Positions 2,102 through 43,851 of a stretch of 64,000 bases of DNA are shown here, piece by piece. Below the pieces are notes generated by a model. The model saw only the letters and a list, made by a program, of their open reading frames with translations, was not told the DNA's origin and made no database searches. The first letter of the stretch is position 1. The number at the start of each line of letters is the position of its first letter. The translations under genes were made by a program, and so were the position numbers. Origin of the DNA: Mesostigma viride (Eukaryota > Streptophyta > Mesostigmatophyceae > Mesostigmatales > Mesostigmataceae); assembly GCA_009746045.1 (NCBI GenBank), contig RPFO01000076.1:2029096-2093095 (forward strand). The letters are read 5' to 3'.

Positions 2102-2154
2102 GCCTGGTCTTCCTTGTCTATCGCCTGTTTTGTTTTGCCATCCCACTGTATATA

Positions 2155-7886: not shown

Positions 7887-8755
7887 AGCTGACCAAGGGG
7901 TCAGGGGATAACCTGGGGTGACCTCTGATTCACTGGCCAGTACACCTAGCCTGGTCCAAGGGCAGATATGTTGTTACCCAAAGGAGGCAGGATCCTGGGC
8001 CCTCAAAGGTCTGATCAACCTCAAGGGACCAAGCGGTCTGTGGCTGAGTGGGCACAAGCAAGGTTAGGCTTGTTTCAAGCTGGTCCAGCTCCAAAAGAAG
8101 AAAGGGTTGGAGTTAGCATTTTGGGCAACCAATATGCTAAGTGGATGCAGTTTGGAAAGACCTTTCCAACGCCGTGCTGACTGCCTGAAACAGACAAGGG
8201 ACGAGAAAGATATGAGGTCCCGAAGTCCTAGCCGTCCGTGGCCGACTAGGGTACAGTCCTCTGGTATAGTGGACAGGACACGTGGCAGGCCGTGCCTGCA
8301 CAGGCCTAGCCTGACTATCACGTGACTGTGGTCCACGTAGACCAGAGGAGCAGCAGCCTGTGGCCGGGGGAATACAGGACTGGCACAGGTCTGCAAGGAT
8401 ACTAGGCCTTGCAGGCTTGTGACAGGTCCTGTACTTCCTAGGCTGCAGAGTCTAGGCAAATCCAGTTCGTCCTGGCTCTGCACTGATGCCAGTGGACGTT
8501 GTGGATTTGCTTGTCTGCCTGCACGTGCCTCGTCACGCCGATGGGAACGAGGAACAACGCAAAGGATATAGCTTGGTCATGGGGGATGACCAGCTATCTT
8601 GGCAAGCACGAACCGAGGCTCCCACATTGGACGTGGAAACGCTCACCGTGGTCGTGGCTTGGTGCACGGGTTAAAAGGTTGCTGCCTTGCAACTTTGGCT
8701 TATCCCGTTGTGGCGTGAGAGACCAGGAACTCACAGTTCTGGCTGCTCGCTAACT
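7887..8755 (+). repeat. 3' LTR of element A
   Basis: Second copy of the 52-919 repeat, starting AGCTGACC after the polypurine tract and ending CTAACT. It differs from the 5' copy by a few substitutions and a one-base length change. The following bases (accctccacgg) are the first unit of the minisatellite. Confidence 0.9.
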
Positions 8756-18107: not shown

Positions 18108-18565
18108 AGTTAGATGAGATGCTTAGGCTGACACACGGATTTCCGGCCTGCGCGCCGCGTATTGCCTACCGCGGCTGAGCGGGACACCTCAGTACTGTAC
18201 GGCAGGGTGTACGGTACTGAGGCGTCATGTGGACTGACGTGCAGTTAGTGCCAGACTGTTCCTAGGTGCTAGATCGACCCGCCAGGTCCGGTGTAGCCGG
18301 GCCTGACGGGCCGAGTCTTAGCTGGTCGCTAGTGACGTGGTCGCATGGCATTGCAGTGTCCAGTTGTCCACTGGTAGGTGCTGCAGGTAGCACTGCCATA
18401 GGCATATAGGCGTAGCACTGGGGAGTGCCGCAGCACCCGAGTTTGCCCAGACGTTCCATTCTGAGCCCTCAAGCTTACACTACTCTCATTGTATTATTGC
18501 TAATACAACCATCCTTCCATTTCAGCTTTCGGCAGTTGTCCATCGTCGTTAGACTCGTTCCAACT
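18108..18565 (+). repeat. 5' LTR of element C
   Basis: Nearly identical to 54455-54912. Ends are AGTTAGA...CCAACT. The next bases are tggactgaaaagc, a TGG start that could be a primer-binding site. The short poly-A-rich leader runs to the gag ATG at 18617. Confidence 0.92.
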
Positions 18566-18616
18566 TGGACTGAAAAGCTTTTTTATTTTTTTCCGAAAAA
18601 CAAACAAAAAAAAAAT

Positions 18617-20147
18617 ATGGCTTCCAACAACGTCAACGACAACAACAACAAGGAGAAGGCGCCTGCCAGGCGCACATCCCCCCGCCTTTCGCCGGAGGGC
18701 ACGCCCTCCGCCAACGATGCAGCGAGGGTGACGCCTAGCGTCACCTTCCGCACGGTGGTCGCCGACCACCCCAGGCGTCGGACCCCGCAGGTGGGGACCG
18801 GCGCCCGGGGGATGGCGAGCGGACGTCCGTTTGCCACTGGCGGCTCGTCCGCCATGGCACCCGGGGGGCAGGTCCCCCGGGCACGTAATTCCCCCATCGC
18901 AGGTGATGGGGGTCGTGAACGGAGTGACTCCTCGGAAGAGGACGGGGAGGTGCCGCCTGTGAGGCCACGGCCTTCGCTAGAGATTTCTTCCCAGACGCCA
19001 GCGACGTCTGGTAATCTCTCGGTGGGCCGACAGATGGCCATCCTGGACATCGACCGGTATGGTGCGCATGTTCCGCCGCCTGTAGAGTTCGGGCGCTTAC
19101 CGTATCTTCTCCCCATCGGGGAAGACGACATCCCAGCGTTCATCTCGGTGAACGGCTGGATCATTCGCCAGCGTTTTCAGTTGACCGCCGATGAGCCGAC
19201 GCATGCGATGGATGTTCATCGGACGCACACGCTGCTCGAGCATCGTTTGCGGATGCAGTTCAACATGATCCAGGTGGCCGTTTGGATGTGGTGTTTCGCC
19301 AATAGGCCGAGGCGCAATCCAGGCACTGTGGATCAGTGGGCGTCCAGGCAGCGTCAGAGAGAGGCGCTGCGCGTGGTCGCCAAGCAGGAGATCACGCTGA
19401 CTCCGTTGCCGCCGTGGCCCCAAGTCACGCCAGTTGGCTGGGGCCCGGAGAGGCGCGAGGCGGCTGCGATGCCGCCTGCGACGGAGCGCGGGGCGGCAGT
19501 CGCCCCTACCACGCCCATGGGTGGTGAAACCACCCAGGACCCTCTGGCAGGTCAGAGGGTCCAGCCTCAGCAGCGGGCTCCCCCGCCCAGTGTGGGGGGC
19601 CAGGTGGCTGAGGAGGCCACCGGGGTTGCAGGGACCCCGGAGGCGACGCCAGCTCCCGGGGTCGCAGGGACCCCGGCAGCGACGCCCGCGCCTCCGGCGC
19701 AGGCGGGGGAGGTAACTCCCATGGAGGGTGTCACTGGCACCTCCAGCGGCTCTGGGGGGCAGGCCCCCTCTAGTCGCAACAGGGACAAGGCCCTGGCTGG
19801 GCCGGAGGGGCCTCAGGGTCCCACCCTGGCAGGGCAGCAGCCGGCACGGCTGGACGGCGATCTGGAAGGTCAGGACTTCATCACCCTGAATGATGAGCCT
19901 GTGTGGCGGGCCATTCAGGCTGCCACCGCCTCCTTCCGTGGGCTGGCCGACAGGAGCCAGCAGCTGCATGTCGCGGAGGCGGGCAGCCTAGTGTGTGCGA
20001 TTATCACGCATATACTGGGCTTGCCCAAAGTCCACGCGGACACACGCAGGGTGTGCGACGACTTGCTGCCTGCCCTGCAGGCCCTCCTCTCAGGGAGGAG
20101 GGTGCAGGGTAACAGGGTTCGCCTGGTGCGACTCATGGAGCTCCTGC
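18617..20147 (+). CDS. gag: Gag of element C, N-terminal part (interrupted by B)
   Basis: Starts MASNNVNDNNNKEK at the first ATG after the LTR. The N-terminal ~200 residues are Pro/Arg/Ser-rich. A folded segment follows (FGRLPYLLPIGEDDIPAFIS to MQFNMIQVAVWMW), then a Pro/Gly/Ala-rich linker with repeats (VAGTPEATPAPG) and a helical segment (ADRSQQLHVAEAGSLVCAII, LLPALQALLSG). The frame is cut at codon 511 by element B and resumes at 28247 in the same phase once B and one cctgc are removed. The extended part occupies the place of the separate ORF1 in A, B and D. An apparent continuation to 20308 is B LTR sequence. Confidence 0.8.
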
Positions 20148-20850
20148 AGTTAAACGTTCTTAGCACACGCAATGTGAAGGATATGGTTGCAATGCAGCAA
20201 TGTGTGAATATGGTTGGAAACGGAGCTTTGTTAAAATCGGATAATGTTACAGCGCTCACACACTTGAGGCTTGTACACGCGTTTGCCAAGTCAAGGCACA
20301 ACACGTGAGGCGGGCTCGCAAGAGATCTGCCCAAATGGCATTGGCCTATTGTTTATATACTTGTGCACTGTGCTTGCTAGTCCTGAGCAACCTAAGAGGT
20401 AGGCTCAGTATTAACACCCCCGGTACAGTATTCACTACCTGTACAGAGCCCAGCTCCTATACAGTAGGTCTGCCATACAGGCACAGTGACCACAGAGCAC
20501 AGTCCACAGTGACTATTGCATCTGCACCTAGAAGTCCAGGACTAAGCCTGCATGCGGTATCAACAGACCACAGGTTAAGGTTCCTATTTCCTGCGTACGA
20601 CGTATTAATCCAATACCGTCGTAGGTACAGCACCTAATTCCTGTCAGCCCAGGAATTACTGTCGACCCCATATGTCGTCGGCAAATATTCACGTCCGACT
20701 TAGGAGAACAGCCGGCTCGCGCTCGCGCGCGACCGGGAAGTCGGAACGCCATAACTTTCTTGATACTTGTCGGAATGAACTCGTTCCGGTGCCGCTGGAA
20801 TCGCAGAGATATGCCGAATCAGGATCACGCCAATGCGCTTGGCGTTAACT
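20148..20850 (-). repeat. 3' LTR of element B
   Basis: Matches 27550-28241 with small indels. Ends AGTTAAAC and GCGTTAACT on the + strand. It contains the word AGCCGGCTCGCGCTCGCGCG. In element orientation it follows the polypurine tract at 20851-20870. Confidence 0.92.
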
Positions 20851-21657
20851 CCAATCCTTTCTTTTCTTGAGCTGTAGCAGCTCACACAAGTCTACATACA
20901 AACACACCCAATGGGTACTGGACATCCTCCCCGACTACAAGTCACAACCCACTGGGCATGACAGTCAGCTTGGATTCCTGGACATCCTCCCCGACTACAA
21001 GTCACAACCCACTGGGCATGACAGTCAGCTTGGATTCCTTATTATATGTACATAGCACCCATACTGGTTCAGGAGCACAAACAAATTACAATGAGTCCCT
21101 ATCCCTTCACGGGAGGCTCGTTGTGTTACCCATGTACAAGAGGTTGGCCAACTGTGGCAGCCCATAGGTGTTCAGCTAAGAACTTGAGAAGTATGTACAA
21201 CCTTCAGGACCTTAGGCGAAACCCCACAGATCACCCACAACAGCTCATCAGAAAACATTGCTGACCCCCAGACGGGAGTCGGCGCCGGTCTGCTGCCCCT
21301 TATCGAACCAGACACAACATCTACGCGAAGCACATGCAAAACACAAGCTCCCATACTCGTTCCAACCGTGGAAAATCAGGGGACCTGTCGCCACCTCACC
21401 AGCATGGTGGATGGGTCAGCCAGTCCGTGAAACTCCGCCTTAAGACGGCACCAGGGAATCGAACCCCGCCCACAAACCACAGATCTGGGGAAACCTCAGA
21501 CTGAGATGAAAACCCCAGATAGACATCTCTCCATCAGAGACAATGTCAGACATTCCCACACCAGAGACATGTCTCACCCCTCAAGGTGTGCTCAGGATTA
21601 TGTACAATCAAGCTCCCAGCCTGATATCCAGAGACTTAAGCACCCAGCTCTCAGCTT
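20851..21657 (-). other. 3' UTR of element B: polypurine tract, 60-bp tandem repeat, T-arm-like hairpin
   Basis: On the minus strand a purine run (aagaaaagaaaggattgg) directly precedes the LTR, at about 20851-20868. A 60-bp unit is tandemly duplicated at about 20920-21039. At 21452-21468 the minus strand reads CGGGG, loop TTCGATT, CCCTG: a 5-bp stem with 7-base loop that matches a tRNA T-arm/B box. D has the same sequence in the same place. Confidence 0.65.
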
Positions 21658-24600
21658 TTAGACAGATAGACCGACTTGACAGTCAGCATTCATGAGCTTC
21701 CTCAGTACATTGTACTGGGCTGGGGCCTTGTGTGGCAGCTTTGTCAATGCATCAGCAGGGTTCTCCTCGCCAGGGATATGCTTCAAGTCAACCAAACTGG
21801 CCAACTCCTTCAGCAACAAATAATCCAGGTCCCGGCTTCTGGCCAGCTGCTTGTGAACAAACTGGACCATACCCATGCTGTCTGTTAGCAACAACGTCTC
21901 CATCTGCAAGGTCCAAGGGGTAACTGAAGCCAGCTCCAGCATTAACTCCTTTATGTACAGGCTGGACTGGATCCCCTCGCATATGGCCCTGCATTCTGCC
22001 ACATCTGAACTGATACAGACCCTCTTCTGCAGTCTGCTGTACCAGCTGAACAAACTTGCCCTGCTCTGATAAAAAGCAAACAGAGCAGCAGATCTCCCCC
22101 TGACCTTGGTAACCTGGCGAGCATCCATGGAACTGTCAACAAAGATCTCCAAGGTGATAGGCTGGGCAAAGTCAATCCCAGACAAAATCAGATCAGGGGT
22201 ACTCTCCACCAACCGGGCTATGACTCGAGGCTTCTCATCCTCAAGCACCTCATCAGGCATTCTGCTATGGACCATCAAAGACGGACCACAGATGCTGGCA
22301 AACCAGGCCCACATGCCTCTCAACTCAGGTCCTGCAGCCTGGGTGATCTTCTCTGGCAAGGCCTTCACAATGGTCTGTTTATAATCTCCTCCAGCCTGAA
22401 GCCTGATACTCCACTCCCCGTCCCTCCTGAACAGGGTAGCCTGCATTCCACAGAACACTACAGGCTTGTTGGGCTCCTGCCACAGCTCCTTGCCCAGTGA
22501 AAACTTGCCACTGATGACAGGAATAAACTTCTTCAGCCAGGTCGTGGGGGCTAGCAAATGCAGATCATCTCCATGCAAACTAGCATACACTGGCAGACCC
22601 TCCCATTGGGCCAGCAGCAAACAGGGATCAACTGAAGACACTCTCAAGCCACACTCACTGATCAGAGCTTCCTGCAGCGTGAGTCTCCAGATGATTGGGC
22701 TCGACCTGAGTCCTTCCAGGCCCTTCAGAATAACCAGGAATTGTTGATGCAGCTCCAGCTTCCAGATGGCAGGCACCTCAACACAGTAAGGCTCATCCTG
22801 CTTCCACACCCTCCTGGCCACTTCTGGATCAGATTTTAAAAATGCCCTCTTGAAGTCCAGCAGCACTGATGACATAGCTGCTCCCCTGTTCAGCAACCCC
22901 ACGTAGAGACATAGCAAAATTCTCCATGTGTCGTGTAGCATCCCTGGCGTGTATAGCTCCTCTCCTGGCAGACTCCCCGTGCCGTGATACTCATTCAGGA
23001 CAGGCCTGACATGGGGCACTGATACCTCATCCACAACCTTCCTCTTCAGCACAAATCTCAAAGCAAGCTTCCTTGATGCTGGGGGACGTCTGTCTGTTGG
23101 TGCAGCACACTCAAACTGCAACCACTCCTCCAATGCCTTGGAGAAGGCGAGCTTCCAAGCCTCAAACAAAGTAGGCGAGCTCATCTCTTGGACCAGCTGG
23201 TCATATGTCAAAGGAGAGTGTGCAGCAAGGCTCCTGTGAGTTATGCCAATACTGCTGGGGTGCAACACAGCTGGAATCACCAAACTGGCCGCTGGGGGCA
23301 CCTCCCCTTCATCCCATTTTACACCCTTGACCGGCTTGGCCCTGCACCTGACTGGAAATGTTGTCCTGAAATTTTCTAGGGGAATCATCCCCCAGCCATC
23401 TCTTCTCAGAGCTGTAGCTCTGATAGAAATCCCAGGATTGCCCAGAAAATTCTGACCCAAAATCACAGGGCCATCATAGTCCTCTAGGACAAGGAAGGTC
23501 ACATCCACACCCATGACAGGGGCAGTAACCTCTCCCAACACCCTTAGATGCGTCCTACCACTGAAATCAGACACCCAGGGGCAACTTGGTTCTCCGACCA
23601 GCAGTTCTCCTGTATGCTGAGGTCCCATGACAGAAACCTGTGCATTGGTATCTATCTCCATGGCAGCTACCTCAGGTTCATCCAACTGGACAAGCTTGGA
23701 CACCTTAGGCTCCTTCTTGGCTCTTTGCAAAGCCTGTACAATATCTGATAGACGCACACCCCTAGGCCTGGTGTCGGGCCGTTCCGGAGGTGCAGCCTGT
23801 CCGCCTGCTTGCCCAACCACCGTATGTGAAGGTACCCCAGGGGCCGGGCCAGGGTCACCCTGAGGGCTCGATACAGCTGTAGCACCCTGATCAGGAAGCT
23901 CCACGTCACCCCCGCCTTGTACACCAGCGGGCACCTGGAAGAGGTCTCCTTGATTACCTCCCCGGGGACGGATCTTTGACCAGGACAGACGGTGCACTGC
24001 TTGGGAGCCATCAATGGCCACCCAGCACTTATGGCCAGCGGCTTCTACTCGGGTCACCACCCCATCATGCCAGCTGCCACGTTTCCCTGGAAAGCTTGGT
24101 TCCTTCCACACAACAACCTGTTGTCCAACGTTAGGTTCTAGGACACTCCAGCCCTTGTCTTTCTGCCTCAGCTTGAGGAACTTGGCCTCTAGCTTCTCCT
24201 TCCATGCCTGCTCAGCATCAGCTGGCAGCATCCTGGTATGCAGCATAAGAGGATTGATGGCAATGTCACCAAAGAACATGGGAGTCCTCAGGTTCAGCCT
24301 GTCCTCCACAGAACGTAGCCATGCAGATGTCACAATGGCAGATGACGTCCTTGGAATCCTCTCCACCAGCAGCACAGTCTTGATCTCTTGGATGGCTCTC
24401 TCCACCACCCCTTGCTGGCCGTGGCTCTCCCTGGGTGTAATCAGCAACTCTGGAAACTCTGGCAGGTTCTCACAGCACTCAAACTGAATGTCACACTGCA
24501 ACAACTCCAACCCAGGGTACCTGCTCCTTGTCAACTTCAGAGCAGCAATCAATGTAGGCTTCTCCATGTCAGGCAGGATCTCTAGGGTCTTGTACTTGGT

Positions 24601-25248
24601 ATATCTGTCCACTGCCACCAGCAGCTTCAAACCCCTGATTCTCTGAATATCTACCTGCACATGGCCTGGCTGCAAAATAGGAGTCCTGGCATGAGACTGC
24701 TTGGGCTTTCTAGCAACTAGCCTGCACTTGCAAGCTTGAGCAACCTGTTGGCAGATGGAGTACAACTCACTTCCTCCCAGCCGTCTAGCAACTTGCAAAG
24801 ACTGAGCTGCATGGCCAAACATGGTATGCAACCTTGAGGCAATGTCATACAAGAGAGAAAACCTTTTATTGTCATTATTAGCACTCAAGGTATGTACAGA
24901 TCCCTTATGTACAGGAGGCACCAGGGTCGTGCCTGTCAGACTGTCTCCAGCCCTATCCTCATCCTGACCATCCTGTGCCAGTCCTGCACGGTCAGAATGC
25001 TTCTGAGATCCACCTGGGTCCACATCACCAGGTCCTACCTCAGGCTCAGCACCGCCATGGCGGGCACGTTGGCGAGTAACCACTGCAGCTACAGCTGGCA
25101 TACTCTCTGTGGTAACCAAGCTTGCCCCATCGTGTCCAATAGGCTCTTTCACTAGAGCATGGGGCTGCCCCTCACTGCTGTCACTAGCAGCTTCATTACA
25201 CACCCCTGGGGGCACCCTCCAGGGTTCAGGGATGTGTGCAGGCTCAAG
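21658..25248 (-). CDS. pol: Pol of element B: integrase - retropepsin-like - RT - RNase H, intact
   Basis: Open from the gag UGA to 21658. Numbering from the GTG at 25215 (1,185 residues): pre-integrase zinc region H130-X4-H135 with C155 and C162-X-C164; integrase catalytic D189, D242, E272 (29 residues between the last two, shorter than the usual 35) followed by a basic C-terminal domain to ~420; retropepsin-like domain with DTN at 522-524 and ILGQNF at 585-590; RT with DFKRAFLK at 787, LKGLEGLRSSP and HGDD at 881-884; RNase H with D1027, E1074, D1112, D1155. RT and RNase H are clearly copia-like. Protease follows integrase, the reverse of normal copia order. No other DTG/DSG candidate lies upstream. 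Confidence 0.93.
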   Translation of the reverse strand, partial: LEPAHIPEPWRVPPGVCNEAASDSSEGQPHALVKEPIGHDGASLVTTESMPAVAAVVTRQRARHGGAEPEVGPGDVDPGGSQKHSDRAGLAQDGQDEDRAGDSLTGTTLVPPVHKGSVHTLSANNDNKRFSLLYDIASRLHTMFGHAAQSLQVARRLGGSELYSICQQVAQACKCRLVARKPKQSHARTPILQPGHVQVDIQRIRGLKLLVAVDRYTKYKTLEILPDMEKPTLIAALKLTRSRYPGLELLQCDIQFECCENLPEFPELLITPRESHGQQGVVERAIQEIKTVLLVERIPRTSSAIVTSAWLRSVEDRLNLRTPMFFGDIAINPLMLHTRMLPADAEQAWKEKLEAKFLKLRQKDKGWSVLEPNVGQQVVVWKEPSFPGKRGSWHDGVVTRVEAAGHKCWVAIDGSQAVHRLSWSKIRPRGGNQGDLFQVPAGVQGGGDVELPDQGATAVSSPQGDPGPAPGVPSHTVVGQAGGQAAPPERPDTRPRGVRLSDIVQALQRAKKEPKVSKLVQLDEPEVAAMEIDTNAQVSVMGPQHTGELLVGEPSCPWVSDFSGRTHLRVLGEVTAPVMGVDVTFLVLEDYDGPVILGQNFLGNPGISIRATALRRDGWGMIPLENFRTTFPVRCRAKPVKGVKWDEGEVPPAASLVIPAVLHPSSIGITHRSLAAHSPLTYDQLVQEMSSPTLFEAWKLAFSKALEEWLQFECAAPTDRRPPASRKLALRFVLKRKVVDEVSVPHVRPVLNEYHGTGSLPGEELYTPGMLHDTWRILLCLYVGLLNRGAAMSSVLLDFKRAFLKSDPEVARRVWKQDEPYCVEVPAIWKLELHQQFLVILKGLEGLRSSPIIWRLTLQEALISECGLRVSSVDPCLLLAQWEGLPVYASLHGDDLHLLAPTTWLKKFIPVISGKFSLGKELWQEPNKPVVFCGMQATLFRRDGEWSIRLQAGGDYKQTIVKALPEKITQAAGPELRGMWAWFASICGPSLMVHSRMPDEVLEDEKPRVIARLVESTPDLILSGIDFAQPITLEIFVDSSMDARQVTKVRGRSAALFAFYQSRASLFSWYSRLQKRVCISSDVAECRAICEGIQSSLYIKELMLELASVTPWTLQMETLLLTDSMGMVQFVHKQLARSRDLDYLLLKELASLVDLKHIPGEENPADALTKLPHKAPAQYNVLRKLMNADCQVGLSV

Positions 25249-25251
25249 TCA
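25246..25251 (-). promoter_or_regulatory. Candidate UGA readthrough site between gag and pol (B)
   Basis: The gag frame ends KAADH-TGA and continues CTT GAG in the same frame into pol with no other stop. The UGA-CU context is shared with A (UGA-CUA) and D (UGA-CUG). Confidence 0.55.
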
Positions 25252-26434
25252 ATGATCAGCAGCCTTGCCCTTGCCCTTGTCCTGGGATGGACCAGCCTTG
25301 TCCTTGCTGCCACCCTGAGCTGGCTTGCTCTGACCTTCCTGCCTCAGGTACGAGGGACACTCATTCCTGAAGTGACCCTTCCCCTGGCAGAAATAACATT
25401 CCACCTGACTGATGTCCCGTGAGGTCCCACTGCTGGGCCCAGCCTTGGGAGGACCACCCACCCTCTTGAAGTCAAACTGGGACTGTGGATGTCCCGACTT
25501 CGGCGGGGTCCCCCGTCCAGCCCTTCTGTCACGCCCCCTCCTGGACCTTCCTCGACCCCTTGAAGAGGTCTCAGGCCCTCTCGAGGGCGCTGGGCCCCCG
25601 TGGCCCGATCCCCTCATGGACTTAACCGTGGGTTCAGTGGCCTCCTCATCACCCTGACGAGGGCGCTTACCACCCACGTACTTGCCGCTGAAACACTCAT
25701 ACAACTGGTCCGTCATGGCTGCCCAGCCATGGACCTGTCGCATGTGGATGGTCACATTATCCATGGTGACCGGATCCAGCTGCAGCGACTTGAGAAAGTC
25801 GCCCATGGCCATCCGATCTGCGACGAAGAAGCCCTTGGCCATGGCGTCCTCCCTCAGCTTGACGAAGTCTTCAAAGGCGTGGACCACTAGCTGCCCCTTG
25901 ATGGGCTTGTAGTCCAGGTATTCTTGCTTCAGGTGGGACCCATCTATGGTCCTCTTGTCACTCAGGAACACCTGAGTCGCGTCATAAACGCCGCCCAGGT
26001 GTCCCCCGCCGCGTGTCGCTCCCGAACAAACTTGAACAGCCGCCTCGCCGACTGCCGTATGTAGGCACTAGACGCCAGGATGCGAAGCTTGTCACCGTTG
26101 TATATCTCCGTGTACAAGTTCATGTCCTCTAACATCCTCTCAGCATCCCGGGGCTGCCAATTGTCCTTGATGGACTGAAACTGGCCTAGCACCGCGTACC
26201 CCTCAGCAACGGTGGTCGCTTAGGCGCCGCTTGATCTGCGGCTGGCGCGTGCTGCCCGCCCTGCGATCCTTGGCTCTGATTATCTGGCACCTCAGCCTGG
26301 TCTCCCAGCGCCTGGCCGTCCCCGCGTCCATCGCGTCCACCGCGTCCATCGCGTCCATCTCGTCCATCCATCCCAGCGCCGCGCCGCGCGAAGCCCATAA
26401 AGCCCGCTTGTTGGTTGATAGCTCCATCCTCCAT
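25249..26434 (-). pseudogene. gag: Gag of element B, with CCHC knuckle (frameshifts)
   Basis: Three overlapping minus-strand frames form one protein: 26434-26186 (start MEDGAINQQAGF, then Gly/Asp/Arg repeats), 26192-25962 (capsid-like, FQSIKDNWQPRDAERMLEDM) and 25971-25249 (GFFVADRMAMGDFLKSLQLD, then an Arg/Gly-rich tail). The zinc knuckle CYFCQGKGHFRNEC binds nucleic acid. Frameshifts lie near 26190 and 25965. The capsid-like words match A (DRALADYFLDRMGL) and D (NVADNIALTNWLKVSGLD), showing common descent. Confidence 0.82.
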
Positions 26435-26536
26435 GATGGCCTCTGTTCAGATCTGCTACAGCCAGCCAAGTGGCCAAGCAGCAATTAAAGCAATATAAGC
26501 TACTGAACAAGAAAGGAAAGTGCCAAGTGTTACCAC

Positions 26537-27456
26537 TCAGGCAAGACCACCACGGCTGGCCCCAGGCGCGTCCTGGTTCTCCTTGTCGCTGTCGTCGTCG
26601 CTGTCGCTCACCACAATCAGCTCTGGTACCCTGCTACCTGCTGCGCCGTCGTCGACCCGCTGTCGGCCCGCGATGACTGAATCGTCACCGTTGGTATAGT
26701 AGACAGGTGACAACCCGTCGTTGGCACCCCGCGGATTGTATCTTGGCACCTCGTGGTCGCCAAGTGTCTCGTCGCCTAGCCCAGCGACACCCCCTGCTCC
26801 TACCTCAAGGTCACTATCGTACCCAAGAGGTGCAAACTCTTCCCAACGCGTCACACGAACGCGAAGGGGCAGGGGCAGTTCCTGAAAGGGAACTCTTACT
26901 CGCTCCGGAAACCTGCCGACTCTTGTCGCGCGCTGTCCTCCGGTGATGGCTTCCGCTGTCGCCCCGACCTCTGCAAGCCGCCTGTAGTGCTCCGCTCCGC
27001 GTCGTTCACGCCTAACTGGCCCCGCTGCAACACCCTCGTCGCCGATGCCGCCTGCGAAAGCACGTGGTACTCCGCGCCCGCTACTGTCGGTACAAACTCG
27101 TGTCGCCCTGCGCCAGCTGCCTCCGCAACCTCGCCTCGCCTTGCTGCCAACTCCGTCCGCACTCGCTCTGCTACTGCAGTAATCACCGTCTGGATGCCGA
27201 CCAACCCGTGAAGCTCCTGCTCAAGGTCGTCGATGCTCCGGTGCTCCGGAATGACGATGGTTTGTACGTGTCGCAGAATTCGCTCCCAATCTTCGACCTG
27301 GTCGTCGACGAATTGCACGAAGCTGCGATTTACAGGCGGACGATCTGCAAGCAATAAAGATAGATCCCGAACGACACGGCGTAATTCAGGAGAAATCGAA
27401 CCCCCAGCAGACTGCCGAAACCGGAAATCCTGCTGCCGTTGTTCCTCCTGCACCAT
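26537..27456 (-). pseudogene. Extra 5' ORF (ORF1) of element B
   Basis: Minus-strand frames 27456-26896 and 26854-26537 make a ~300-residue protein with one break near 26870. The first ~130 residues are helical (LRRVVRDLSLLLADRPPVNR, IDDLEQELHGLVGIQTVITA). The C-terminal part is acidic (SDSDDDSDKENQ). No known domain is recognised. Position between LTR and gag matches ORF1 of A and D. Confidence 0.6.
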
Positions 27457-27549
27457 TCACCACCGGACGAGCTCCTCTCGTCGTCAACGCTGCACACCGC
27501 AACCGGCAACGACCCTCCTGGCCGTTCCGCTGAGACTGGTTGTAATTTG

Positions 27550-28241
27550 AGTTAACGTTCTTAGCACACGCAATGTGAAGGATATGGTTGCAATGCAGCA
27601 ATGTGTGAATATGGTTGGAAACGGAGCTTTGTTAAAATCGGATAATGTTACAGCGCTCACACACTTGAGGCTTGTACACGCGTTGCCAAGTCAAGGCACA
27701 ACACGTGAGGCGGGCTCGCAAGAGATGCCCATTTGGCACTGGCCTATTGTTTATATACTTGTGCACTGTGCTTGCTAGTCCTGAGCAGCCTAGAGGTGCT
27801 CAGTAATAACACCCCCGGTACAGTATTCACTACCTGTACAGCGCCCAGCTCCTATACAGTAGGTCTGCCATACAGGCACAGTGACCACAGAGCACAGTCC
27901 ACAGTGACTATTGCATCTGCACCTAGAAGTCCAGGACTAAGCCTGCGGTATCAACAGACCACAGGTTAAGGTTCCTATTTCCTGCGTACGACGTATTAAT
28001 CCAATACCGTCGTAGGTACAGCACCTAATTCCTGTCAGCCCAGGAATTACTGTCGACCCCATATGTCGTCGGCAAATATTCACGTCCGACTTAGGAGAAC
28101 AGCCGGCTCGCGCTCGCGCGCGACCGGGAAGTCGGAACGCCATAACTTTCTTGATACTTGTCGGAATGAACTCGTTCCGGTGCCGCTGGAATCGCAGAGA
28201 TATGCCGAATCAGGATCACGCCAATGCGCTTGGCGTTAACT
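27550..28241 (-). repeat. 5' LTR of element B
   Basis: Second copy of 20148-20850. In element orientation it ends ...GTTAACT and the interior starts CAAATTACAACC, not a TGG-type primer-binding site. The target copy cctgc follows at 28242-28246. Confidence 0.92.
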
Positions 28242-28246
28242 CCTGC

Positions 28247-29593
28247 TGCACAATGCCATCATGAAAGGGGCGGGTAGGTGGTTGCCTACCTGGCTGCATC
28301 ATGATTTTACTAACCCTACTGACGATGACGTGTCTCTCTCTCCCACCTTCCATGACTGGGAGGAGGCCCGCAGCAGGAGGCGGGAAGTCACACATACTCA
28401 CACCCCCACCCAGCCCACCCCTATGTTGCCTACCCATCCTACACAGCCCATGCTTGCCTCTCCTGCTCAGCTCACTCAGGTAGCACCTCCCTCTCAGCAT
28501 GTCTCTCCTGTGAATGCTGCAGCAGCAACACCATCTTCTCCCTCACCCCCTGCATCCCCCTCCAGGTGGCCCACATACAATGAAAACCGTCCTGTGGATA
28601 GGATTAATGTCAGGGGGCTGCCTGAGGGGCATACTAGGGAGCAGGGGAATCATGCACTTCTCTCTCTCCACCTGGCTAGGGAGGAACTGAATGTCAAGAA
28701 TTGGTTTGGATCTCTCATGCAGGGGGATTTTTACCATCAGTCCTACTCTCAGATTCAGAATCTCATCCTTGTCTTCCAGCGTAGGTATCCCAAGTGGCAG
28801 GACACGCAGGCTAGGGCAGTTTGGGAGGCCTTCATGAAGGAGCTAACTGACCTCCTCTCCACCCCCTCATCTGTGGACATGTATGGGGCATTCAGGTGGG
28901 TAGAGGAATACAGGGTCACCTCCGTAGACTATGTGGCTGAGACCAAGAAATATGAGCTAGCCATCAAAGCACGTCCTGATGTCCAGCAGCTAGATCACAA
29001 GTACTTGCTGCGTTCCTTCCTTGAGAAACTCAAACTTGACAAAAACACCTACGCTATGCTTGCAACGGGAATGGCAAAGTACTGGGAGGACATGAAGGAG
29101 GCATTGGATTATATCAAGCTGGCCCTGGCCCCACTAAGCCAGGGGGCCATGGGCACCTCTGTAAAAAGGGTCAGGGGGGAGGATAGGGAGGAGGAGGACA
29201 GGGAGAGGGAAGACAGGAGCAAGAGACCTGTAACCATGGCAGAGGTGAAGTCCCTGCTGGGACAGCTGTTTAAGGGCAAGGGCAAGGGCAAGGGCAAGGG
29301 CAAGGGCAAGGGCAGGGGCTGGGGCAAGGGCAAGGGTAAGGGGCAGTCTCCCTCCAAGGGGGGCAGCTCCAGCAACAACAACAGCAACAACAATAACAAC
29401 AACAGCAACAACAACAATAACAACAACAAAAACAACAACAACAACAGCAACAACAACAACAACAACAAGCAGGACAAGGAGGACAAGTCTTCTCAGCGGT
29501 GCACCCGCTGTGGCATGAAGTACCACCTGCGGCCCACCTGCCGCAAGAACGTGGACGAGCTGGGGCACTTGGACGTCCTGTGCCACAAGTGCT
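28247..29593 (+). CDS. gag: Gag of element C, C-terminal part
   Basis: Continues the 18617-20147 frame after B is removed (codon split across the junction). Capsid-like segments (NWFGSLMQGDFYHQSYSQIQ, YLLRSFLEKLKLDKNTYAML) resemble the other gags. A Lys-Gly repeat (GKGKGKG, about 29270-29345) and an Asn-rich run (AAC repeats, about 29375-29470) follow. Cysteine pairs (CTRC, CHKC) and later HGPPHGDPKDC look like zinc-binding motifs. The TAA at 29593-29595 comes from the Q insert; beyond Q the same frame reopens at 30073 into pol. Confidence 0.8.
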
Positions 29594-30071
29594 AAAAGGT
29601 TTGATGTAAGATTCTGCGCAGGATGTAAGAATATGCGTTAACCTTAGCTAAAAGGTTTGCGCATAAAAAGTATAAGCATTCGCTTGTACAACTTAGAACC
29701 GGCGCGGCGCGGAAGTCATGGGTTCGAAACCTCGTGGGGCCAGTGCCGAGTAGGGATTATTTGGGAGGATCCGCCGGGGCACCGGTCGGACCTAATTAAT
29801 CGCCTAGCGAGGTACATATCGGACCTTCCCGGGATTAATATCGAATTAGTAATTCGATGCGGAAGTAAACCCTAGTTAGGGAGCCGCTTAATATTCCGCC
29901 CCAACGCGCAAAGGTTTTAAGTTGTACAAGCGAATGCTTATACTTTTTATGCGCAAACCTTTTAGCTAAGGTTAACGCATATTCTTACATCCTGCGCAGG
30001 ATGTAAGAATATGCGTTAACCTTAGCTAAAAGGTTTGCGCATAAAAAGTATAAGCATTCGCTTGTACAACT
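29594..30071. mobile_element. Element Q: small element with palindromic terminal repeats
   Basis: The right terminal repeat (29920-30071) is a 152-bp palindrome with ends AGTTGTACAAG...CTTGTACAACT. A second copy ends at 29693, but its outer arm is rearranged (29594-29617). Between them is a 226-bp interior with GGGTTCGAAACC (about 29720-29731), like a tRNA T-arm/B box, followed by GGGGCCA. Ends match the copia-like LTR termini in this window. It separates gag from pol in C. The left target copy is lost. No coding capacity. Confidence 0.7.
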
Positions 30072-30072
30072 C

Positions 30073-32458
30073 CACGGGCCGCCCCACGGTGACCCCAAGG
30101 ACTGCAAGCGGCCTCCTTACGGCAAGAAGTGTGAGTTACCCTCTCATGCTGGCTTGAGTGTGCCTGCTTCACCTCTTTCATCTGCATGCCCCACTGTCAG
30201 AGCAGTGAGCAGTTCTGGAAAGGTGCTACAGCTGGTTTCAGAAGATTACGTCTCTAAACCAACCTTCACATCTATGGTTCCCAAGGTGTGCAGAGTGTCC
30301 CCATCAGAGGATGCTCATATCAGTATTCAGGAGCTTGCTTTGCAGTTGCACTTCCTTTATGGGCATGAGGTGAGTGCAGAGGTGGTGGCAGCAGCAATAG
30401 GGGGGGCAGCACTCAGACGTGCTTGCCAGGTGGTCAGATCACACTGCCAGCATTGTCAGTTCAATGCACCCAAACCCCCTAAGTGGCATGTAGCTACCCC
30501 ACCTAAGTGCAAGGGCAGGGTGGTAGGAGATGTCTTTCATATAAAAGGACAATCTTACTTGGCACTTAAAGATGCATGGTCACGGTACACAACCATTGAA
30601 CCATTACTTGGAATGGACAAAACACAGTTGCTCAGGGCTCTCTTGATTGCTCAGGCCAGGTACTACCCTGTGGAGGCATTATTACTGGATCAACAGTTCA
30701 CGTGTCTTGCCAATGAACCAGGGTGTGAGTCTATTGATCTGGCTGGGCTAGAAGATCATGAGAGGCAAGGCATCATTGAAAGGGCCATCAGGTCCATTAA
30801 AACCCTTGTAGCCAAGGAAGATGGTAATCTGCTGGCTGACAGTGGGTCATATGCTGACCGAGCTCTGTGGTCCACCAGGCTGTGCCAAGCCCTCAACAGG
30901 AGGCCACTCATGAAAACCCCACAAGGGGTGATCATTACACCAGATGGATTGCATGCAGGCATTTATCCACCTGAGGTACTAGCCCTATACAATGCACAGC
31001 GAGCACATACAGCTAGCAGGTTAGCTGTCAAGGATGCAAAGCATCCACGTCCCACCTTCAGAGAAGGGGATCAGGTCCTATTATACAAGGAGTCGGGACT
31101 AGGCAAGGTGGGTACCTGGCATGGGCCAGCCACCATCCTAAAGTTTAATACCACTGGCAGGACAGTGCTGGTTAAACAAAATGACACGGGAAAGATTCAC
31201 AGGTGTTCACCTCACAGGATGAAATTGTATTTTCCAACTGTGTCAGACGTGGCAGAGGAGGAAGAGCTGTTGGCCGACAGCCCTGTACAGTTGCCTGGCA
31301 TCCCAGCGTTGCCCAGTGAGTGGTTGTTTGGAACACCCACTGGTGAGTGTGCGAGCCACACCCACTGTGACACCCAGGTCACCCTTGATGATTGTAGGCA
31401 GTCACTGCAGGCTTGGTTGGCCCCCTGCAGCAGAGGGTTACAATGGCAAAACAGGTGAGCAGCAACCTCTCACCTCTTCAATTGTGAACACAGCTCAGCC
31501 ACTAGCTGCATCTTCCAAACGCAGCCTAGCAGAAGCTGTTCGCATTTTACAGTCAGCTCATCGAGCTAAAGCTCAAACTGCTGCAGGATCAGCTAAGGTG
31601 GGGAAGGTTGGGCAGAATGACAATAGCCCATTTACGGTTGCAGTGGACACACAAGCCCAGGTCAGCATTATCAGTGCACTGGCTGTGCCCCATATGCCTT
31701 TGGAACCTTCACCCTGGCACCATGTGGCTGATTTCTCAGGGCAGTCATCCCTCAAGGTACAAGGTCAGGTCATGTTGACTATACTTGGTATCCCCACACC
31801 TTTTCAGGTATTGGAAGGTTATAAAGGTAATGCTTTGTTGGGGGATCCTTTTCTATCTTACCCGGGTGTCATTATTTCCAGTAGTAGACTATCCATCCAG
31901 GACCTGGGTGGTGTTGATCTGAATCATTTCAAAATTTCCCTTCAAAAACTTCTTAACACCAACATTGCTTCTGTAAAATTTGCTACCCCCAAGTATGCCC
32001 CAGGGCAAGAACCTTGTGTGGCAGACTTGGTTCATAACCAAAAACTTCATCCCACCTCCTTTGGATTGGGCAAGCATGATGTGGCTAAAATGTCTCCTCT
32101 TTCTTATGAACAGATAGAGCAAGATTGTCGCACACACATAGGTTTCCTAAAATGGGTGGAGGCCTTCAACAAGGCCAGGGAAGAATGGGTAGTGCCAGAT
32201 CCTCTTAGCCCCTCTCACACTCCACCTGTCACACCTATTGACAAAAAGCCTGCAGGGTGCAAGCACTTGCGCCTGAAGTTTGTGTGTAAACATAAGCCAG
32301 CAGCAGATGGGTCAGTCATTTTCCATGCTAGACCTTGTGTGACAGAGTTCAAGGGCACCACTGATCTGACAGAGGCAGAGTTGTACACGCCAGGCATTCA
32401 GCAAACCTCCTTAAAAATCTTGCTGTCTGTCTTTGTGGGTCATCTCAATGACGGGGAT
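30073..32458 (+). pseudogene. pol: Pol of element C, part 1: integrase, retropepsin-like domain, start of RT
   Basis: The pre-integrase zinc region (LHFLYGH...CQHC) leads into the integrase core: catalytic Asp in VVGDVF, Asp in LLLDQQF, Glu in GIIERAI (29 residues between the last two), then a C-terminal domain (KVGTWHGPATILKF). The frame breaks between 31316 and 31458 (overlapping frames) and continues with the retropepsin-like domain (VDTQAQVSII, ALLGDPFL) and the RT N terminus (ELYTPGIQQTSLKILLSVFV). It is cut at 32458 by element P. DTQ replaces the usual DTG/DSG. Confidence 0.85.
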
Positions 32459-33174
32459 AGTTAAGTAATGCAATACGCATTACTTTTGCATACTTGCAAG
32501 TATGCAAAAGTAATGCGTATTGCATTACTTAACTAAAATTGGGCCGCGTGGGGAAATCCGGCGTTCCGCACACACCGCTCGTTACCGAGGTGACTCGATT
32601 AATTACGACTCGGCTATTCCCAGCCTCGCGCCGTAATTCCTATTTCGACTTGGCCTACCCGGCCTCCGCCAAACATAGAAATCCACAAATATTTCGACTC
32701 GGCCTCCCAGGCCTACCCGCCGCAAATATTTCCGTGCCTCCGAGAGGATTCGAACCCGGTACCCCAGGAGCGAACGCCAATCTTAGTTAAGTAACTAAGA
32801 TGCATACTTGCAAGTATGCAAAAGTAATGCGTATTGCATTACTTAACTAAGATTGGCGTTCGCTCCTGGGGTACCGGGTTCGAATCCTCTCGGAGGCACG
32901 GAAATATTTGCGGCGGGTAGGCCTGGGAGGCCGAGTCGAAATATTTGTGGATTTCTATGTTTGGCGGAGGCCGGGTAGGCCAAGTCGAAATAGGAATTAC
33001 GGCGTGAGGCTGGGAATAGCCGAGTCGTAATTAATCGAGTCACCTCGGTAACGAGCGGTGTGTGCGGAACGCCGGATTTCCCCACGCGGCCCAATTTTAG
33101 TTAAGTAATGCAATACGCATTACTTTTGCATACTTGCAAGTATGCAAAAGTAATGCGTATTGCATTACTTAACT
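32459..33174. mobile_element. Element P: palindromic TRIM-like element
   Basis: Identical 76-bp terminal repeats (32459-32534, 33099-33174), each a perfect palindrome with ends AGTTAAG...CTTAACT. Between them two ~250-bp units lie in inverted orientation around a partial third copy of the palindrome (32785-32848), so the whole 716 bp is nearly one palindrome. Target duplication is gggat (32454-32458, 33175-33179). Removing the insert restores the C RT frame. Each arm holds GGGTTCGAATCC (a T-arm/B-box word) at about 32745-32756 and 32877-32888. No ORF. Ends and 5-bp duplication match the copia-like family here. Confidence 0.88.
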
Positions 33175-33179
33175 GGGAT

Positions 33180-34362
33180 GACTATGTATGTAAGGCTACA
33201 GACATTAAAAGGGCCTTCCTGAAAGGCTCACCTGAGATAGCACAACAAGTGTGGCATGGTCAGGTGTATGTGGTCTCCACACCAAGAGTTTGGGCAAAAC
33301 ACATCCCTCAGCAGTACCTGAAAGCTAACATAGGTGTTGAAGGGCTGCAATCAGCTCCTCGCATTTTCAGGATGTCAGCTCAGGCTGTGTTTGAAAAGCT
33401 AGGGGCTAGATATGATGACATAGACCCTTGCTTCTTTGTGGTCCCACACCCTCATGGCATACTCACCTTTGTGTGGCATGGGGATGATCAGCTGATTGCT
33501 GGGCCAAGGCGTGCTGTAGATGAGTTTATACAACAAGTGTCTCAGCATTTTGAAATTGGCAAGCAAGTAGAGCTGGGCACCACTGCCATAAAATTTTGTG
33601 GCACAATGTTACAACTCCAGCAGCAGCAAAACCAGTGGGTGTGTGCACTTTACTCTCCCAATGATTACATGCACAGCTGCTTGGAGGTTTTGCAAACCAA
33701 AATCAAACCTGGAGCCTGTCCCACCATTAGAGGCAAGCTGGGGTGGTTGTGCTCAACTTGTGCACCTCACCTGGCTGTGGTTAGCAGAGTTGATGATGAT
33801 GTCTTGATGCAAGTAGGTCACAAAGCCATCACCAAAACTCTCCAGGAAGGCCCTCCCCTTATCTTGCACTCCTTGGATCTCCACAAAACCATTCACATCC
33901 AAGCTATGATGGATAGTTCCATAGAGTCCAGGCAGATTACCAAGTTGCAGGCAAGGGAGTCAGGCTTGTATTTTGTGCAGAATGATGATGCACCATTGTC
34001 TCTCATTTCATGGTACAGCCGGTTGCATAGACGCAAGGCTGTCAGCAGCAATGCTGCTGAGTGCAGGGCAGTGGTGTCAGCAGTGCTTCATGCCAGGTAC
34101 TTGAATCATGTGCTGGTTTGGTTGCAGATGCAAGCAGGCAGCAATGCTGGGGTGGTGGCACATTTGCTCACTGACAGTCAGTCAGTCCTCAGTTTCCTTG
34201 CTAACCCCTATGCTGTGCACACTGATCTTGACTGGGTGGTCCTTAAACAGGAGTCCACCTACTGGGAGTCCACCCGTCACGTGGAGGACAAACACAACGC
34301 TGCTGATGCACTCACTAAAGTGCCTCAGCAGGCAGCTGAACAATATCAGCTGTTGTACCACT
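33180..34362 (+). CDS. pol: Pol of element C, part 2: RT and RNase H
   Basis: Resumes in frame after P (ATDIKRAFLKG). RT motifs: GVEGLQSAPRIFR, DPCFFV, WHGDDQLIAG (HGDD catalytic box), IKFCGTML. RNase H motifs: AMMDSSIE, AAECRAVV, LLTDSQSV and ADALTK. The apparent stop at 34362-34364 is made by the D LTR. Removing D continues the frame at 53336 for a short tail and natural stop. Confidence 0.88.
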
Positions 34363-34783
34363 AGTTGAGAGAGAGTTGCCCTGAATTCCGCCATGGTTCT
34401 TGCAGGAATGTTGCCTTTATTAAAAATAAGGAACACAGACGTAAGTCACGTCACTTCCAAGACTGCACGCAGCACAGACGACAGGGTCGCAGTGCCAAGA
34501 GAACGTGCACGCAAGAACTAGCGTCCCGGTGCTACCAAGTCACACATATAGGATGCTAGGGACGCGTCCAAGTATTCAGCTGCACTGTCACAGCTGAACT
34601 ATCAATCAATTGATTACACAGACTCTGGCACGCCTTTGGCGCGCAGATCTATCAATTGTCCATACGGCTAGTCCTGTGGACCTATCCGTACACTGCTCAG
34701 CATCAATTGTCTCATAGGTCCTGGCGCGCTACAGCACGCCTACCTATCAATTGACCATCAAGTCCTGTACAAGTCCTGTCAAC
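34363..34783 (-). repeat. 3' LTR of D, first part (continues at 45906)
   Basis: Matches 52717-53137. The sequence continues at 45906-46098 after element E; the target bases tcaac occur on both sides of E. Reunited length equals the intact LTR (614 bp). Confidence 0.92.
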
Positions 34784-35357
34784 TGTTACGTCCTGGCTCG
34801 ACTCTATCCCAAACACCTCGCCTAACCTGACCTAAACTAGTGATGAGGCACCTACCTAGGAGTGAGGAGCTATATTGGCTTTAAGACCTAGGACGCGACG
34901 ACGCTGCTTCTCAATGCATTCCCTTATAATACGCCATATACCGAATAAAACCAGGGTACTACGAAGGAAACACAACTACACTGCCGTGACCCAAGCCTAT
35001 ATGTGTTAATTCATTTAACACACGCCGAGTGCCATTCACGAAGGACAACTGCTGCATAAATGATCGCCGACAGGCGTGTATGCTCGGGCCGACATCGACC
35101 CTCGCCCACAGGACCAACGCACGTCCACAAGGTTCACACGCAGGATAAAAGGACCACTACTAAAGTACGCAGCGCGGCGCGACTGCACCGAACCACCATA
35201 CTGTACAATTGCCACGTCACAAGGCCCGGTACCGACCGGCCAAAAGGTCCTTACTACACGTAAGCCTAGGAAAGTCAGCGAACTGCTCCGGAATGGCTGA
35301 GGCAACAAGGGACCTAATTTACGTCCGTAACAACAACAAAAGTTACGCGACGTAACA
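34784..35357 (-). repeat. 3' LTR of element E
   Basis: Same length and almost the same sequence as 45327-45900. In element orientation it is preceded by a G-rich polypurine tract (GGGGGGGAGG, about 35358-35367). Confidence 0.93.
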
Positions 35358-35726
35358 CCTCCCCCCCACAAAGGTAGGGAGCCCTCTCCCTACGCACAGG
35401 GAGGAAACCAAGGGATAGGAAACCTAATGCACCCAGCACACACCAACACAATCGGCATGCCATCCAAGATACAAAGCACCAACGTATTAACTCGGTCTCC
35501 ACCACCACGCCGGGAGGTGTAGGGTTAACCAGCACCAAGCCTGGTGGTAGGTTCCCCTAACTGCCTGGAACAGAGTCCTTGCCGGGGGGAACGGCACTGG
35601 GCAGGACACACAGAGTAAACAAATCAGTACCAAGGACCAAGAACGACCAATCAACTGGCCAGAATATGAGGGCGACTCTATATACCGGAGGGACAACACC
35701 CTCAGGTCGGGCCTAAGGCCCTCTAT

Positions 35727-37688
35727 CTAGTTGCCATCAGTCTGGTAAGTGCCACGCGAGGCCAGCAGAACATCCAGATACGCCTGGTAGTGGGCCACAT
35801 CATCGGCATTGTCATGCCTATCTACAGTGAGGAAAACATCGGCCCACACGCCATCAGGAAAAAGACCCAGAAAGGCCCAGTAATACCTATGCTGCGTAAG
35901 AACGACCTGGCCACGGGCCCAGTCCAGGAAACCACAGGCAAAGAGGCGTAGGAAAGGCTCTACCGCGATCAAGCAGAGAGCCCGCAGGAGTAGGCGATGG
36001 TACCGGATCCGAGAGCGCAAACCCGTCGGGAAGAACAGATCTATACCATGGGCTCCACGTCAGACGGCCACATCCGGATGTGCCGAACCTCACGGAAGCG
36101 CCACCGACGGGCACACTGTCGCGACCCGAACGTCTCGAGGTAGTCGCTAGCCCGAGGAGGGGGATGGCCACGGGAGTCCAGACCCTGGCCCGGGATGGGC
36201 GCTAGACGACGGGCATCCCACTCTAGGATGGGCTGGAGAACCGTGCTGTACGTAGCACCCGGCACCGCAGGAAACTCTACCGTAAGGGCAGCTGAGGCCA
36301 TAATGCCCAGAGGCGGAGGGTAAGCCCACTGGAACCCACCGTAGGTGTCCAAGTCATTGTGACGCCTAGCCCAGCGATACAGAACACGCCGAACCAGGAT
36401 CTCGCCCTGGAACACAGGATCAGCTAAAATAACCATATCGAAAGGAGGCCGATCAGTCTCAATGGGTAGGCCACGGTCCCGCGGCGCCCGACACTCCTGG
36501 GAGAACCCGAGGGACATGGGCAAAATGGCAAGCTCGGCGGAGGCGCGCGGCAGGTCACACTGTCGGCAGGCGTGCGCAGACATACCGTACCCAAGGACAG
36601 GCGTGTCGCGCGACTCCGGCGTCGCATGCACCACAGAAGCGACCCGATCCCGATCGCCATCGGACAACTCCCGGAGGGAATCAGCAGCGCGGATGGCGCA
36701 AAAATCAGGGCCGCTGGCCCGAACAACCGCAGCCAAAGACCGCGGGGCCGAAGGGACGGGGGCCGAAGAAGGGGTAGGAACCGGCACAGACGCAGACGGC
36801 GCCGGTACAACAGGGGGTCGCGTCGGACCCGCTGCCGGAGGGGGTCGCGACGGACCCGCCACCGCAGCTGGCGCTCCGGTCTCCGGTGGCGGCGCACCCC
36901 CAGGCCACATGTTGAAAACAGGGCCCGTAGGGACAGGCAATCCGGCATACGACTGGTTACCATCCAAGCTCCAGTCGGGCACCTGAATCCTCTGCGGAGG
37001 ACCACCCTCCCAAAGCCTGGGAAGACCGCCCGGGTCGCTAAAGAAACCCCGCGATGGCGGCGCTGACGCTGTGGGCGGCCCGGAAGCGACGACGGCGGGC
37101 GCGGCCGCTGGGGCGGAAGACTCGCGCAGAGGCGCAGGTACGTCGGTAGCAGGCGCAGAGACAGCCGGAGGCGTAGGAGCCGCAGCAACAGAAGAAACCG
37201 CAGCTACCGAGGGCTCGCACAGCGCGGCGAAACCGTAGGCGCCGAGGCAACCGAAGGGGAAGGGGGCACAGATACAACAGACACCCCACCTGGCGTGGCT
37301 GGAGCATGCGCCTGGGCCGCCATGAAGGCCCCGAAAGCCGCGGTCAGGGACTGGATCTGTGCCTGCATCGCAGAAACAGTCGACGAGAGAGGATCAGGCT
37401 CACGATCCGAGCCCAAAGGGGTAGGCTCCACCGACGCGCGCCGGGTCGACCGTGGTGAAGACGGGACAGGGGAAGGAGCCGACACTGAGGAAGAGGACGC
37501 TGCAGGGGAGGCCGAATACTCTGGCGTGTACTGTGCCTCGACTGGTGCGTCCGTAGGGGAAGGGTCGCCAAATGCTACTCCCGCTGTCTGGTCCGCGATC
37601 TCCATGAACTCGACCGCCCGTAGGAGGTCACAGGGGTTGTCATCTATATCTGCCTCGCCCTCGCCCGGAAGCCTGAGGGGAACACCTC
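35727..37688 (-). pseudogene. Unrecognised ~650-codon reading frame at the 3' end of E
   Basis: Starts in the position where the integrase core should follow the zinc domain (junction near 37688, right after ARSYYW). Frames 37605-37204, about 37230-36041 and 36045-35727 join with two single-base shifts (near 37220 and 36045). The N-terminal half is Pro/Ala/Ser-rich with a short heptad-like segment (TVSAMQAQIQSLTAAFGAFM). The C-terminal half looks folded (MVILADPVFQGEILVRRVLY, LDTYGGFQWAYPPPLGIM, LLLRALCLIAVEPFLRLFAC). No catalytic motif, signal peptide or clear membrane span is seen. It could be a gag from another element joined by recombination, or a captured gene. Confidence 0.55.
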
Positions 37689-38577
37689 CAGTAGTAAGAG
37701 CGGGCTACTAGGTCCCGTACCCGTTTACCACCCTGATGAGCAGCTAAGTCATGCAACTCAAAGAGCAAGGAGGAGCGACAGATAGGAGGGACATACAGGC
37801 GCCATTGAGGGGGAGAATCTGCTATTTGCACATATAAAAACCCACCTACAAATTTACAAGGGTGCTTGCCTAATTGTTGGGGAAGGGCTGCAATGGCAGC
37901 TAAAGCTTCCGGCTCAGTGGCCGTAAATCTACTAATAAGGCGTTCAAGATCAGAGGTAGGCATCGCTACAGAGGTATCCAGAACAGGTTTAAAGAGGTCT
38001 CCTACCGCCTTGCGAAAGAGAAGGGGAGGTCCTAGAGGGACTATGTTATCATAAGACTTTCCTGACCTAGTCGCTATATGGCTAAGCGGTATGGAAATTT
38101 TATTTTTCCCCTCCCCCCCCACCGAGACCACAGGAAGGGCCTCACACGGGAGAGAGAGTACTACGTGAGAAAGGAGATCAGGCATGCGAACAGCAGTATG
38201 AAAGAGATAGGCATAGGATTCATCATCAGGTAGTTCACCATAAGGGGTTACACCCATAGTAGTAGGAACTAGAGTAGTATTGAGAACATCCAGGTCCTCG
38301 AAAAAGGAGTAATCTGCGCGACGGGAGAGTGCATCTGGTACTATGTTATCTACACCCTGAACATACTGAAGTTTAAAAGGGGAAAACTGTGCTAAAAACT
38401 CCATCCAGCGCGCTTGACGAGGGGTAAGGTTGGGTTGGGAGAGAAGATGGGTAAGGGGACGGTGATCCGTTTGGATAACTAATCTATAAGGATCTATCTC
38501 ACAGGGTTCATTCAGGCAGACATCAAATTGAGCACCTTTAAGAAAGTGCTGCCACGCGTGGCAACAATACACCACCG
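37689..38577 (-). pseudogene. pol: Pol of element E, part 2: RNase H end and integrase zinc domain (truncated)
   Basis: Resumes the RNase H frame after the 38582-40299 transposon: QTDHRPLTHLLSQ, TPRQARWMEFLAQF, YVQGVDNIVPDALSRR, all typical Ty3 RNase H end motifs. The integrase zinc-binding start follows (LHDLAAHQGGKRVRDLVARS) and ends at YYW. The CC half of the zinc site and the whole DDE core are missing. Confidence 0.85.
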
Positions 38578-38581
38578 CTAA

Positions 38582-40299: not shown

Positions 40300-40303
40300 C
40301 TAA

Positions 40304-42175: not shown

Positions 42176-42300
42176 AAGAGGACGAACACGTAAGGGTAGG
42201 GATGATTCAGCTCCTACAGAAGTTATGAAAACAGGCAGGCAAAAATTATTATCTGGGGTACTATCTAAGGACCTGTCCAGGTTACCCCCGGCTGACAGGC

Positions 42301-43809: not shown

Positions 43810-43851
<42 letters not shown>

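Follow-up and report, generated by a model that had tools for sequence, protein, structure and literature searches.

Long terminal repeat retrotransposons of Mesostigma viride with a copia-type reverse transcriptase and a putative retropepsin between integrase and reverse transcriptase

The order of the domains in pol is one of the characters that separate the families of long terminal repeat (LTR) retroelements and, to our knowledge, every described family carries its protease (PR) ahead of the integrase (IN) and the reverse transcriptase (RT). The order PR, IN, RT/RNase H is given as characteristic of copia in PMC3587641, where the Gmr1-like gypsy elements are described as having IN upstream of RT, an arrangement termed copia-like in PMC2774666; the pol domains are listed in PMC8556966. 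This text concerns four elements (A, B, C and D) in a stretch of 64,000 nucleotides of the streptophyte alga Mesostigma viride (contig RPFO01000076.1, positions 2,029,096 to 2,093,095), hereafter the window, by whose first letter all positions are numbered. Like the Gmr1-like Ty3/gypsy elements, they have a pol order that deviates from the norm of their family, but the deviation differs: there the integrase stands upstream of RT, whereas here the protease stands between integrase and RT.

All four elements encode gag, followed by a DDE integrase, a retropepsin-type domain, a copia-type RT and RNase H, and the order IN-PR-RT-RNase H is confirmed for the elements of the window. It had been predicted from a reading of the sequence, and both tblastn and a motif scan bear it out in four of four. 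The pol of B is a single open frame on the minus strand (25248-21658), of 1185 amino acids from the first GTG or 1196 from the preceding stop, and the residues originally numbered D189, D242, E272, DTN 522 and ILGQNF 585 are recovered as D200, D253, E283, 533 and 596 in the longer count, a shift of 11. The retropepsin-type domain of B occupies 23392..23676 on the same strand (DTN at 23652-23644, ILGQNFL near 23463-23443). When the B pol is used as a tblastn query, A, C and D are collinear with it over IN, PR and RT, with an identity between C and B of about 26-38% that varies by domain. Element A (plus strand) has IN at 3970-4709, the retropepsin-type domain at 5054..5338 (DTN at 5078) and RT/RNase H at 5540-7077; element C (plus strand) has IN at 30325-31212, the retropepsin-type domain at 31622..31906 (DTQ at 31646, with LLGDPFL) and RT at 32075-32455 and 33201-33900; and element D (minus strand) has IN at 49351-50301, the retropepsin-type domain at 48772..49056 (DTN at 49032) and RT at 48214-48663. 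These sites fit the motif positions first proposed, about 5073 in A, 31645 in C and 49020 in D.

Scanning the internal regions in all three sense frames yields a single ILGxxFL-type motif per element, in each case between IN and RT and preceded by D-T-N/Q-A/S-Q-V-S. The same scan yields no retropepsin candidate upstream of the integrase in A, B, C or D, in keeping with the earlier statement, made for B, that no protease lies between gag and integrase. Elsewhere B, C and D each contain two D[TS]G triplets and A contains none; on reading, all six were judged to stand in low-complexity or other non-retropepsin context.

The contrast with the usual arrangements can be drawn inside the same genome. 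An RVT_2 search of the genome scored 150 conventional copia-type copies, all above the cut-off, and the three conventional copia families examined all have a CCHC gag, then the protease, then integrase and RT, so that the opposition to the gag-protease-integrase order made in the original prediction holds on local material as well. Their protease motif reads WVLDSAASS in two families and WVVDTGATY in one, both unlike that of the new elements, and a long stretch rich in Pro, Ser and Ala separates their integrase from RT. In the window itself, the gypsy element F keeps the usual order of gag, PR (DSG ... LLGLDW), RT, RNase H and integrase. As an observation on the conventional families themselves, the active site of the two that are designated L063 and L064 is DSA and not DSG/DTG.

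Insertions lie nested within one another in the window and several elements are frame-shifted, a setting that could produce an unusual order by local rearrangement or by an error of assembly and not as a trait of a lineage. Against this stand the agreement of four diverged elements lying on both strands, the intact 1196-residue frame of B and the copies found elsewhere in the 440-Mb assembly, in which B-type and C-type copies were counted. The 39 B-type pols scored, the window's own included, are all 100% identical and without stops, a number that is a lower bound, given 10181 first-look candidates. Among C-type copies, 150 places were scored of 4595 candidates; they are 94-100% identical and three have one stop. 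The order IN-PR-RT recurs in 33 of 34 C-type loci (window C included), the remaining one, L023, being partial. Of the four C-type loci picked for a long frame, L040, L041 and L042 have gag, IN, PR, RT and RNase H in one frame (1609 amino acids in L040), and the frame of L039 stops before RNase H. Because the B frame is intact, C-type copies elsewhere keep this order with gag and pol in a single frame and C is so diverged from B, a chance rearrangement is excluded, as had been argued from the four elements alone. The copies across the genome refute an explanation by rearrangement or artefact, unless the whole assembly is at fault, and we give it practically no credence. The lineage with the order IN-PR-RT appears, from its numerous near-identical B-type and C-type copies, to have multiplied recently.

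The nature of the domain between IN and RT is established less directly, by matches that are weak but concordant. A profile built from its four sequences matched 16 sequences of the PDB, of which 15 are retropepsins, while the reversed profile, used as a control, gave two matches and no retropepsin. In the AlphaFold2 model of the C domain (31583-31960), all 50 Foldseek matches listed are retropepsins; the model of a longer region of B is poor (predicted local distance difference test score, pLDDT, 39.8) and, with a DDI1 domain as its top match, lends weak support only. The retropepsin-like stretch that had been placed at about residues 480-620 of B is thus upheld by the PDB profile and by the fold match, although the domain modelled well is that of C. 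The Pfam family gag-asp_proteas is matched by longer pieces of C (E=0.013, below the cut-off) and A (E=0.11); three of the four members converge on a single Pfam family, none at the curated cut-off.

Other searches with the same domain were negative: the PR pieces of B and D gave no match in Pfam, nor did a majority-letter PR query, and five PR pieces gave none in NCBIfam. That every sequence match stays below the curated cut-offs, and that hhalign gives the new PR no significant match either to the proteases of the three conventional copia families (probability 0.09, with shallow profiles) or to the partial protease of gypsy F, would suit an unrelated beta-rich linker in which the motifs DTN and ILGQNF are coincidental. 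The 15 retropepsins of the PDB profile against none in the reversed control, the fold matches and the convergence of three members on one Pfam family speak otherwise, and such a linker is very improbable. The domain is taken here, on grounds of homology and predicted fold, as a retropepsin. Codon comparisons demonstrate purifying constraint on this predicted protease: over six pairs of its core, the proportion of nonsynonymous differences (pN) is 0.31-0.47 and that of synonymous differences (pS) 0.54-0.82, several synonymous distances (dS) being saturated. The identity of C to the other elements is 38-43% in PR, 32-34% in the IN core and 36% in RNase H, PR being conserved no less than the other two.

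With the retropepsins of clan AA (gypsy, retrovirus, ASPRV1, DDI1) the new domain shares the layout DTxAQVS ... [IL]LGxxFL as well as the profile and fold matches; it differs from them in its site between IN and RT and in having DTN or DTQ in place of DTG/DSG. The canonical triplet is absent from the PR domain of all four elements (DTN in A, B and D, DTQ in C), a departure on which the original prediction did not remark when it gave the DTN of B. In fact the glycine that should follow Asp-Thr is replaced in four of four window elements, 8/8 B-type loci and 34/34 C-type loci. Such a consistent loss could mean that the retropepsin fold is real and the protease dead, the domain being kept as a structural module (for dimerisation, or as a spacer) while a host protease processes the polyprotein or no processing is needed. 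Asp and Thr are nevertheless invariant in the four window elements despite the 38-43% identity of C, and among the C-type loci Asp is retained in 34/34 and Thr in 33/34, where the motif is DTQAQVS in 31, DTQQAQVS (with an extra Q) in two and DAQAQVS in one (L015, the exception for Thr; L018 reads DTQ). Moreover, the glycine is missing as well from two of the conventional copia families (WVLDSAASS) in this genome, so the position may tolerate change here. A dead protease appears to us unlikely, and the discussion goes on with a retropepsin that is probably active. The ancestral copia protease may have been lost and another retropepsin, of gypsy, retrovirus or DDI1 type, gained between IN and RT, where it would act with a DTN/DTQ loop, a scenario that we hold possible but only tentatively; if true, the protease would have been both replaced and relocated, with a new form of active site.

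The RT of B (22414..23220, minus strand; LLDFKRAF, HGDD) is homologous to that of C, which matches RVT_2 with E=1.7e-4, below the curated cut-off, while the pieces of A, B and D taken alone give no RVT_2 match. A profile of the B and C-type RTs aligned by hhalign to three RTs of conventional copia elements in this genome gives a probability of 95.9 (E=5.3e-9, 194 columns). Judged by these profiles, the RT of the lineage is of copia type, as had been proposed. The RNase H of B, copia-like, was assigned at 21739..22176 (minus strand) from the alignment and by motif, with no Pfam match.

The integrase of B has a putative zinc-binding region (24706..24852, minus strand; H-x4-H ... C..CxC) assigned by eye from translation and alignment, for which hhalign against the conventional copia zinc region gives 0.86, not significant. 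Its catalytic core (24334..24675, minus strand) carries D200, D253 and E283 of the 1196-residue numbering in a DD29E arrangement; the three acidic residues are invariant in the alignment, and 29 residues separate the second D from E in B and C. All three core members match rve when matches up to E=10 are admitted (best 0.0015, B 0.012), all below the cut-off. The matches of the core in the PDB are weak, with integrases in 1 of 9 and 2 of 8 and a kinase as the best match both times, and the new IN profile has no significant hhalign match to the conventional copia integrase of the same genome. Behind the core, a putative C-terminal module of SH3/Agenet-like type (23965..24153, minus strand; Agenet E=0.0062, below the cut-off) aligns with C and D. 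Searched in full against Pfam with matches up to E=1 admitted, the B pol returned no integrase, protease or RT match, a result that bears on software which detects and classifies elements with domain models.

The C-terminal part of the B gag, with a CCHC zinc knuckle (25249..26067, minus strand; zf-CCHC E=7.1e-5), ends in TGA (25251-25249) followed in frame by CTT. The same boundary is found in A (TGA at 3507..3509, plus strand, then CTA, downstream of the CCHC knuckle) and in D (TGA at 50671..50673, minus strand, then in-frame CTG), so that gag and pol are parted by TGA-CTN in three diverged elements, a point absent from the original prediction. The sequence TGA CTTGAG is unchanged in eight of eight B-type loci (L001-L008). 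In the C-type copies gag and pol share one frame. TGA-CTN is a leaky stop context, and between gag and pol it is likely a read-through signal; RNA structure 3' of the gag stop does not rise above shuffled sequences (z -1.15 in B, 0.51 in D, -0.20 in A).

Taken together, we regard it as probable that A-D belong to a lineage with a copia-type RT and the pol order IN-retropepsin-RT-RNase H, in which A, B and D make Gag-Pol by read-through and a dimerising protease frees IN and RT-RNase H. Gag would be translated first; in the branch of A, B and D the UGA-CUN stop would most likely be read through at a low rate to give Gag-Pol, while in the branch of C gag and pol would be made as one frame. The retropepsin in the middle of pol would most likely dimerise when Gag-Pol is packed into particles, and the dimer would cut on its N-terminal side to release the integrase and on its C-terminal side to release RT-RNase H, with catalysis presumably by DT(N/Q).

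On present sequence evidence these elements form a lineage of LTR retrotransposons that combines an RT of copia type with a pol order and a protease active site that are both unusual, and that would work like Ty1/copia. They share with that group the copia-type RT, an integrase upstream of RT, a CCHC gag and, in B, a 5-bp target duplication, but their protease stands behind the integrase and not ahead of it, its motif is unlike the WVLDSA/WVVDTG of the conventional copia of this genome, and their LTRs end in AG..CT instead of TG..CA, the usual LTR ends. They are not filed as members of Ty1/copia because their protease does not precede the integrase. A literature search of titles and abstract beginnings, with Repbase and most subscription journals outside its reach and a wording that may be too narrow, found no report of a protease between IN and RT; the lineage may be undescribed, as the original prediction suggested. 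Scans of IMG/VR (with pol, PR, RT-RNase H and IN), prokaryote genomes and plasmids found no relatives, which has little weight for a eukaryotic element. A multiplying lineage with PR between IN and RT would show that the usual order is not functionally required, and it opens to test both the release of integrase and RT by a protease in the middle of the polyprotein and the ability of a retropepsin to work with Asp-Thr-Asn/Gln.

Self-blastn comparison and reading of the flanks resolve the window into nested transposable elements. Element A (51..8755, plus strand; LTRs 51-919 and 7886-8755, 99.3% identity) has a frame-shifted pol. Element B (20148..28241, minus strand) has LTRs at 20148-20852 and 27550-28241, 97.6% identical by self-blastn, with the ends AGTTAA..TTAACT and an exact 5-bp target duplication, CCTGC, at both flanks. 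Element C (18108..54912, plus strand; LTRs 18108-18565 and 54455-54912, 100% over 458 bp) is broken up by B, by D (which carries F) and by foldback inserts. Element D (34360..53332, minus strand) is inserted at the end of the pol of C; its right LTR lies at 52714-53332 and its left LTR, at 34360-34783 and 45901-46100, is split by gypsy element F (34784..45900, minus strand; LTRs 34784-35357 and 45327-45900, 99.8%; duplication TCAAC). The flanks of C and D show a 5-bp target duplication with one mismatch, and none was recognised for A. The LTR termini of B, C and D (20148, 18108 and 34363) are AGTT..AACT, and those of A are AGCT..AACT.

Element C itself seems to lie inside a CACTA-like transposon, signs of which are matches to Transposase_21 (54914-55444, E=1.3e-4) and DUF4218 (58151-58672, E=0.0043), both below the cut-off. 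The nest is then four deep: F in D, B and D in C, and C apparently in the CACTA-like transposon. The order of nesting and the identity of the LTRs disagree, for the LTRs of C are identical, yet those of B, which is inside C and thus younger, are only 97.6% identical. Of the foldback (inverted-repeat) inserts in C, one interrupts its RT (32459-33174; 336-bp arms, 100% complementary, 44 bp between them) and a second lies in its gag-IN linker (29611-30071). The CACTA region also holds, at 55913-57842, a pair of direct repeats of 453 bp (99.1% identity) with 1477 bp between them, which perhaps mark a small non-autonomous LTR element. Elsewhere in the window, fragments at 12896-14269 and 16181-16541, in inverted orientation, are 97-98% identical to the interior of gypsy F.
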